A DNA stretch of 64,000 nucleotides, taken from positions 1 through 64,000 of the forward strand of contig NZ_BCSG01000004.1 in assembly GCF_001570745.1 (NCBI RefSeq), written 5' to 3'. Numbering within the stretch: position 1 is the stretch's first letter; each line of letters begins with the position of its first letter. The notes beneath the pieces were generated by a model, which ran no database searches, was not told the origin of the DNA, and saw nothing but the letters and a program-made list of their open reading frames with translations. Positions 48,670 through 50,843 of this stretch are shown here, one piece after another. Position numbers and translations under genes: made by a program. The stretch is from Alicyclobacillus mali NBRC 102425. GTDB taxonomy: Bacteria > Bacillota > Bacilli > Alicyclobacillales > Alicyclobacillaceae.

Positions 48670-49752
48670 TCATTTCACGTGAATGAACGTGACCAGTCCT
48701 CCCATCATGTCGACCTCGTCGTCGGGATTCATCATGTGATCGAGAATGTGACAGTGAAACATCCAGTCTCCGCGCACGTCGGCGGGAAATTCGATATCGG
48801 CCGTCTCGCCCGGCGCGATGGCGAGCACGTTCATCGGGCGCGGAACGGGCAGCGGGTGCCCATCTTCCGCCAGGAGCCAAAAGGTCGTCTCGTGCACGTG
48901 CATGGCGTGATAACACATGCTGCTCGCGTTCACGATGCGCAGCACGACGCGGCTTCCGTACGGCACGGTCAGTTGGGGCGCGTTGGGATACGGTTTCCCG
49001 TCCAGGCCGAATGCGTTCTCGGTGGTCGATCCGTCCACCATCCACGCGTCGATCTCGTACAGCGCGTCCACCTTGGCGAAAGGGTAGAGGGGTCCGCGCG
49101 CCGGATCGACCAGAAGCACCCCGTGCAGGCCCTGATCAATTTCGCTCGCCATGTCGGTGCCGCTCTCGTACAGGTGCGTGCCGACCATGTCCGGCGTCAC
49201 CGTGAAACTGTACAACCGCTCGCCGCCCGGCGGGACGGGCCGCTCGGTCACGCCGCCGATGCCGAGTTGCGACGCCGGCAGCGGGAGACCCGGGAAGTTC
49301 AGGGTGGTGGGTTCATTCAGTTCGTTCTTCAGCAGGATTTGGACGCGATCGCCGACGCGCACCCGGATGACAGGGCCCGGCACCTGACCGTTGTATCCGC
49401 ACGCGACGACCGACTTGCCCGGATACAGGTACCAGTTCACCTCGCTCGCGACGAGCGTGAACCGCTTGATGCCTCCGGGCAGCATTTGCGGAGTCATGCC
49501 CTGCTCGTCCATGACCCGGTCGGCGTCTGCGTTTTGTTCGCGAATGAGAGCAGGGGTGATGGACAGCGGGCCCGCGTCGGGAACGCCTTCCGGCACGGGG
49601 AGCGATCCCATGGTGCTCGTCGGCGCCATGGACATGCTCGTGGACGCCACCTTGGCGCCCGCGCGCAGGACGGGCGACGCGTGGACCCAGGCGAGGGCGA
49701 GCGACGCGCAGGCGCCGAGTGCTGCAACCAGAGCTGGGACGGTTCGGCGCAT
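48670..49752 (-). CDS. Two-domain multicopper oxidase-like protein keeping only C-terminal copper motifs
   Basis: 360 residues with an N-terminal signal-like segment (VPALVAALGACASLALAW). Two cupredoxin domains. The C-terminal domain has HAMHVH (282-287) and HCHILDHM (333-340): both C-terminal multicopper-oxidase motifs, including the type-1 Cys334 and His339. The N-terminal domain has lost its copper motifs: NFPG (152-155) stands where HxHG should be, and HLYESG (193-198) in place of HxxHSH. Alone it cannot build a trinuclear centre. An insertion after HCHILDH displaces the usual axial Met. AGGAGG is 6 bases before ATG 49752; 11 bases separate it from the upstream complementary gene, so the two are cotranscribed and coupled. 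Confidence 0.88.
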   Translation of the reverse strand: MRRTVPALVAALGACASLALAWVHASPVLRAGAKVASTSMSMAPTSTMGSLPVPEGVPDAGPLSITPALIREQNADADRVMDEQGMTPQMLPGGIKRFTLVASEVNWYLYPGKSVVACGYNGQVPGPVIRVRVGDRVQILLKNELNEPTTLNFPGLPLPASQLGIGGVTERPVPPGGERLYSFTVTPDMVGTHLYESGTDMASEIDQGLHGVLLVDPARGPLYPFAKVDALYEIDAWMVDGSTTENAFGLDGKPYPNAPQLTVPYGSRVVLRIVNASSMCYHAMHVHETTFWLLAEDGHPLPVPRPMNVLAIAPGETADIEFPADVRGDWMFHCHILDHMMNPDDEVDMMGGLVTFIHVK

Positions 49753-49763
49753 GGTCCACCTCC

Positions 49764-50843
49764 TCACGGGGTCACGTGGATGAGCGTCATCATGCCACCC
49801 ACGGGGTCCACGGTGTCATTCGGATTGATGAGCGAGCTCGCCACAGTGTCGTAAAACGGGAAGGTGCCGGTTTGATCCGCAGTGAACTCCACATCCACCG
49901 TTTCGCTCGGTGCGATGGACACGACGCTGACCGTCTGCGGATCCGGCTGCGGCTGACCGTCCTGCGCCACAATCTTCACATCATACCCATCGATGGTCAT
50001 CGCGTGGAACGTCTCCGCACATGCGTTGACAATTCGCATGTACACCGTCGTGCCGCGTTTCACCGTCAGCTGCGGCGTGTCCGGATACGCCTTACCGTTG
50101 ATCAGAAACGTGTTCTCGCTGTCCGATCCGTCCTGCTTACCCGCGCCAAGCACAAACAGGACGTCGCGCACGCGGCGCATGGACGGCGGGGGCGTTTTGG
50201 GATCGACGATGATCACGCCGTTCAATCCTGCGTCCACCTGATAGTCGTCGTCGTAGTGGCTGTGGTACCAGTGCGTGCCGATCATCTGACTTGTCACGGT
50301 GAACCGGTAGACAAAGGTGCCGCCCGGCTGAATCGGGGGCTCGGGAAAGCCCGGCACCCCGTCCATGTCGTTTGGGACCGCCATTCCGTGCCAATGGATG
50401 GTCGTGGGTTCGGGCAGATCGTTGTGCACGACGATCTCGACGCGATCGCCGACGCGCACGCGGATGAGCGGCCCGGGGACCTGCCCGTTGTGGCCCCACG
50501 CCCACAGGTTCACGTTTCGGTAAAAGTTCCAACCGAACTTGGATGCGGTGAGCGTGAATTGCTTGACGCCGCCGGGCAGGATGCGCGGGGTGAGCGCGAC
50601 CTCGTTCATCAGGTTGACAGCGTCCCGGTCTTCTTGTAGGATTTGGGCATTCGTCAGAACGGGCGGGGGCGTGGGCGGCGGGCCGTCGTCGCTCGTTGCG
50701 TTCTGCATGGCCATCGAAGCGGCTCCGTTTGCAATCTGGGCGTCGGCGCGATGCAGCGCGGCCTCTCCGATGCCAGCCAGGGACACGGCCCCGAAGCCCC
50801 ACATGGCTGCCCAAACGGCTCGACGCAGGCGTCTGTTTCTCAA
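49764..50843 (-). CDS. Two-domain multicopper oxidase-like protein keeping only N-terminal copper motifs
   Basis: 359 residues, start TTG 50843 eight bases after GGGGAGG; the frame reaches back to 51110 without a better SD. An exported protein: an Arg-rich N-terminus (RRLRRAVWAAMWGFGAVSLAG), possibly Tat-like. The N-terminal cupredoxin domain has HWHG (150-153) and HWYHSH (191-196), both N-terminal multicopper-oxidase motifs. The C-terminal domain lacks the others: HAMTID (280-285) replaces HxxHxH and FYDTVAS (330-336) replaces HCHxxxH, removing the type-1 Cys. Paralogous to the downstream gene over its full length, with exactly the reciprocal motif loss. Most likely a subunit of a hetero-oligomeric laccase-like enzyme. 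Confidence 0.88.
   Translation of the reverse strand: MRNRRLRRAVWAAMWGFGAVSLAGIGEAALHRADAQIANGAASMAMQNATSDDGPPPTPPPVLTNAQILQEDRDAVNLMNEVALTPRILPGGVKQFTLTASKFGWNFYRNVNLWAWGHNGQVPGPLIRVRVGDRVEIVVHNDLPEPTTIHWHGMAVPNDMDGVPGFPEPPIQPGGTFVYRFTVTSQMIGTHWYHSHYDDDYQVDAGLNGVIIVDPKTPPPSMRRVRDVLFVLGAGKQDGSDSENTFLINGKAYPDTPQLTVKRGTTVYMRIVNACAETFHAMTIDGYDVKIVAQDGQPQPDPQTVSVVSIAPSETVDVEFTADQTGTFPFYDTVASSLINPNDTVDPVGGMMTLIHVTP

Follow-up and report, generated by a model that had tools for sequence, protein, structure and literature searches.

A candidate heteromeric two-domain multicopper oxidase with complementary copper-ligand halves on two coupled genes

In the two-domain laccases SLAC and Ssl1, the trinuclear copper cluster sits between domain 1 of one molecule and domain 2 of an adjacent one (PMC3527528), and it is bound by eight His, four per domain (PMC3600357). 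The six-domain proteins ceruloplasmin and hephaestin keep one trinuclear junction of several, the others having lost ligands after duplication (PMC3600357). Evolutionary schemes for multicopper proteins comprise forms with two, three and six domains, and they suppose that copper sites multiplied by duplication were then lost, leaving a single trinuclear site (PMC3600357). Alicyclobacillus oxidases have been listed as laccase-like genes, in passages that make no mention of complementary loss (PMC9296663). In the open-licence literature we found no description of a heteromeric two-domain or four-domain multicopper oxidase; an earlier description may exist elsewhere.

Here we describe two genes, A and B, in a 64,000-nucleotide stretch of Alicyclobacillus mali DNA (the window). 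Their products resemble the small laccases SLAC, EpoA, Ssl1 and SgfSL, which have type-1 copper in domain 2, in possessing two cupredoxin domains per chain and the same ligand motifs. The known small laccases, however, are homo-oligomers with both halves of the ligand set in every chain, whereas A and B carry one half each. By far the best explanation, and very probably the correct one, is that A and B are two exported subunits of a single heteromeric two-domain multicopper oxidase.

Complementary ligand sets in two coupled genes

Translation yields 359 amino acids for A, read from a TTG start at 50843 with a ribosome-binding-like AGGGGAGG upstream, and 360 for B, read from an ATG, in agreement with the earlier note, which had described adjacent, co-oriented, full-length paralogues of these sizes (Table 1). 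Eleven bases separate the stop codon of A from the start codon of B, and the junction reads TGA GGAGG TGGACC ATG. The two genes are tightly coupled, the ribosome-binding site of B starting directly after the stop of A. Cu-oxidase_3 (PF07732) and Cu-oxidase_2 (PF07731) match both proteins and cover both domains in Pfam, and both proteins can be aligned across both domains to two-domain oxidases of known structure. An AlphaFold2 model of A built from a 37-row alignment has a pLDDT of 93.7 and a pTM of 0.92, and in it the ligand-less domain 2 folds as well as domain 1. The best PDB matches of this model in Foldseek are the two-domain oxidases 3g5w, 2zwn and 3gdc, which are fold neighbours of the small-laccase type, and the dodecameric 7rab, with TM of 0.80-0.83 over the query. 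A is thus confidently modelled as a two-domain fold, and two cupredoxin domains per chain are indicated by Pfam for both proteins and by the model for A.

Table 1. Coordinates of genes, ligand motifs and related loci
Feature	Location	Strand
Gene A, exported subunit resembling two-domain multicopper oxidases; ligands kept in domain 1 and missing from domain 2	49764..50843	minus
A domain 1 HWHG, residues 150-153 (type-2 and type-3 His)	50385..50396	minus
A domain 1 HWYHSH, residues 191-196 (two type-3 His in HSH)	50256..50273	minus
A domain 2 HAMTID, residues 280-285, replacing HxxHxH (Thr for the type-2 His, Asp for the type-3 His)	49989..50006	minus
A domain 2 YDTVASS, residues 331-337, replacing HCHxxxH (without the type-1 Cys, the second type-1 His and the two type-3 His)	49833..49853	minus
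A stop codon TGA, then at once GGAGG ribosome-binding site of B (TGAGGAGGTGGACCATG)	49753..49766	minus
Gene B, exported subunit resembling two-domain multicopper oxidases; ligands missing from domain 1, trinuclear and type-1 ligands kept in domain 2	48670..49752	minus
B domain 1 NFPG, residues 152-155, in place of HxHG	49288..49299	minus
B domain 1 HLYESG, residues 193-198, in place of HWYHSH	49159..49176	minus
B domain 2 HAMHVH, residues 282-287 (type-1, type-2, type-3 His)	48892..48909	minus
B domain 2 HCHILDH, residues 333-339 (type-3 His, type-1 Cys, type-3 His, type-1 His)	48736..48756	minus
Fused four-domain oxidase, one 820-residue chain, another genus	G028:C51:5388-7847 (L092:3389-5848)	minus (L092)
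ZIP fusion	L058:7592-9415	minus
ZIP fusion	L094:3440-5284	
ZIP fusions	L098, L099, L100, L101	
PF04185 genes	L055:4430-6076; L056:4196-5842; L057:7652-9292; L049:8084-9922; L050:5049-6584; L051:8-1948; L097:4200-5981	

All four domain-1 trinuclear His are kept in A, from which the domain-2 set is absent; B shows the reverse, and the only type-1 copper site of the pair is in B. Neither chain therefore holds the full set of eight trinuclear His and a type-1 site. The translations bear out, to the residue, the motifs and positions that the earlier note had given for both proteins. That note had also remarked on an insertion after HCHILDH in B. The insertion is present, but it is not special to B, as full-motif relatives share it (for example, HCHILDHTMNPGDEVDDMGG in G033). 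Because G033 and the ZIP fusions described below carry it, the insertion before the axial Met is ancestral. The likely axial ligand is the Met before GG.

Distribution, selection and descent of the pair

Whole-genome searches covered 41 genomes of the family, 15 of them from the genus. The A-B pair was found in eight of the 15 genus genomes and in three genomes from two other genera of the same family (G021, G022 and G035). Samples of 400 class genomes and 399 phylum genomes added a single further pair, in a genome of another family (G290), and otherwise held full-set genes among those examined. As G290 is the only one of 17 genomes of its genus with the pair, it probably acquired the genes by horizontal transfer. 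The adjacency and reciprocal motif loss first seen in the window are thus both conserved in 12 genomes representing four genera and two families. Neither A without B nor B without A was found among the 41 family genomes. In one genus member (G012:C11; L054:4865-5748), internally deleted, truncated remnants of A and B lie side by side, and both genes have been lost together. Nor did the relatives yield a homologue of either gene alone with a full motif set, which the earlier note had regarded as evidence against its reading; the full-set genes form separate outgroup lineages.

Across the 12 pairs, A retains the domain-1 His at 48 of 48 positions and B the domain-2 ligands at 84 of 84, so that the small-laccase ligand set is complete by sequence in every pair when A domain 1 (4 His) is combined with B domain 2 (4 trinuclear His plus the type-1 His, Cys and His). 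The opposite domains keep few trinuclear His (5/48 in A domain 2, where the type-1 Cys is never present, and 6/48 in B domain 1). One "lost" trinuclear His persists in some relatives, namely the FHDT-type His of A in 5/12 and the first His of HxQG in B in 6/12, and the loss consequently amounts to three or four of the four trinuclear His per dead domain. In all 12 orthologues A retains the initial His of HxxHxH, which occupies a type-1 ligand position. All 21 intact single-unit relatives scored carry all 11 scored ligands; set beside the split conserved in 12 of 12 pairs, this indicates that the pattern is more than chance.

Both genes are under strong purifying selection, including in their ligand-less domains. 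Between species, where dS is unsaturated, Nei-Gojobori dN/dS is 0.035-0.16 in each of the four domains. Mean identity over six distant pairs is 60-61% for the "dead" domains and 64-68% for the live ones, and the live domains are nearer than their dead counterparts to the full-set relative G033 (domain 1, 0.65 for A and 0.53 for B; domain 2, 0.56 for B and 0.44 for A). The low dN/dS and the identity kept in the dead domains show that A and B are both functional. The broken remnant of both genes in G012 speaks for a rival account in which the genes are relics of a duplicated oxidase drifting towards pseudogenes, or the split is a sequencing error. Such degeneration is exceedingly improbable and is already refuted by the conservation data, given intact frames in 12 genomes from separate assemblies and dead domains that remain about 60% identical across distant pairs; we rejected pseudogene or strain decay on the basis of the dN/dS values and the pattern conserved in 12 genomes.

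An IQ-TREE tree computed without any of the ligand columns recovers A and B as one clade each (100/99 in both cases). A third clade consists of full-set oxidases fused to a ZIP transporter; just outside falls the G033 full-set gene, which is unfused. The simplest reading places one ancestral duplication, and the reciprocal loss after it, ahead of the family's radiation, in a tree that settles no branching order among A, B and the ZIP-fused clade. The closest sequence relatives, about 45-53% identical, are the full-motif two-domain oxidases of Bacilli, both ZIP-fused and unfused (G001, G028:C29, G033, G078, G097, G106 and G112). They share the A/B-type insertion before the axial Met and differ from A and B in having all 11 scored ligands in one chain and no half-set partner gene. 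The fusions themselves, found in several Bacilli, are about 600 amino acids long and combine a full-motif two-domain multicopper oxidase with a membrane transporter domain resembling the ZIP family, a part identified by visual inspection in G001.

Proposed assembly and a fused counterpart

By analogy with known two-domain laccases, we infer that the trinuclear copper cluster would form where domain 1 of one subunit meets domain 2 of the next. A is limited to the domain-1 half, and B to the domain-2 half plus the type-1 copper; an active junction would accordingly pair B domain 2 with A domain 1. Junctions between two A subunits, between two B subunits, or between A domain 2 and B domain 1 would be dead, and A alone or B alone would be inactive. 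The type-1 copper of B would draw electrons from the substrate and hand them via the HCH bridge to the shared cluster, where O2 would be reduced to water. The substrate may be cuprous copper, as the Met-rich segments of some B proteins would suggest, or phenols, as the family would suggest. An assembly would hold at least one B-to-A junction, and could be AB, A2B2 or a mixed trimer. The simple trimer pictured in the earlier note needs revision, because neither A and B in a 1:1 ratio nor two-unit chains by themselves can complete a ring of three. The arrangements to consider are a dimer, A2B2 and a mixed trimer that has a single active site.

The complete type-1 site of B could also serve alone as an electron-transfer centre, and A and B might then act separately as copper proteins with no oxidase function: B could carry electrons in the manner of a type-1 cupredoxin or bind copper, A could be a scaffold or metal-binding protein, and the trinuclear His halves could bind other metals. 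We consider this unlikely, as it leaves unexplained the invariant His of A domain 1 and B domain 2 (12/12) and the vanished complementary sets, together with the strict co-occurrence of the genes and the independent fused copy described below. Replacement of the lost ligands is consistent, with the type-2 His changed to Thr and the type-3 His to Asp in all 12 A proteins, as if the dead interface had been selected. One interpretation is that A and B form a structural or regulatory heteromer in which the ligand-poor faces matter, for example by leaving one regulated site per ring, in an otherwise ordinary laccase. We think this very improbable as a separate account, and it refines the heteromeric oxidase explanation instead of opposing it.

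The fused copy is a single chain in one genome with a fragmented assembly (G028:C51), in which an N-terminal plastocyanin-like domain precedes two two-domain oxidase units, giving four oxidase cupredoxin domains. Unit 1 keeps HWHG and YHAH, has HPLSLD and is without HCHxxxH; unit 2 has HWQG and YRAE and keeps HPMHLH and HCHIVDH. The split has the same order and the same kinds of substitution as in A and B, HxHG becoming HxQG and HxxHxH becoming Hxx[TS]xD (HAMTLD or HPLSLD). Both units belong to a clade of plastocyanin-linked two-domain oxidases (100/100) whose other eight members are full-set. As this subfamily differs from that of A and B, the split has at least two origins. Between the two units pN is 0.27 and pS 0.78, so they are not an assembly duplicate, and constraint can be seen. 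In plasmid searches, two-domain oxidases matched both halves of the fusion among the top matches listed. AlphaFold2 gave a poor model of the fusion (pLDDT 51.6, pTM 0.35), and mixed alignments stacked both halves on one half of it. This independent case is stronger support for a heteromeric oxidase than the earlier note had.

Compared with established structures, the fusion resembles laccase (intact domains 1 and 3) and ceruloplasmin (domains 1 and 6) in that its first and last oxidase domains hold the ligands. The units of ceruloplasmin and hephaestin, which share with the proposed A-B assembly the retention of one junction out of several, are fused in one six-domain chain, whereas A and B are two chains of two domains each and the G028:C51 product has four; six tandem cupredoxin domains of the ceruloplasmin type occur in none of them. 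The MnxEFG manganese oxidase complex is also a multicopper oxidase working with other small subunits, as proposed here for A and B, and differs in that MnxG alone carries the trinuclear site. Judged from sequence, A and B are inferred to be an obligate hetero-oligomer. More broadly, we think it probable that the coupled genes and the fused four-domain chain represent a further multicopper oxidase architecture, an obligate heteromer of complementary, half-active two-domain chains with two or more origins through duplication and reciprocal loss of ligands. Such an architecture would be a surviving example of the intermediates proposed to link homomeric two-domain forms with single-chain multi-domain forms such as ceruloplasmin. 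Site loss can here be observed in separate genes as well as within a four-domain fusion, so co-expression can directly test the step that leads from a homomeric to a heteromeric ring. Mixing could serve to control the activity of such a likely obligate two-component oxidase, and a laccase annotation is misleading for either gene on its own.

Genomic context and Met-rich segments

Outside the window's species group, each of the seven pairs, which span two families, has a phosphoesterase gene (PF04185) immediately upstream of A (Table 1). Within that species group, the homologous gene (61-63% identical) is located elsewhere, for example at G000:C11:47314-48585. Some B proteins have Met-rich segments or an N-terminal membrane segment, a hint of copper handling at the cell surface. 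The B protein of G290 ends in a long tail of Met-Ser repeats (MSSMSSMSS...; L097:8707-8887), characteristic of Met-rich segments that bind copper.
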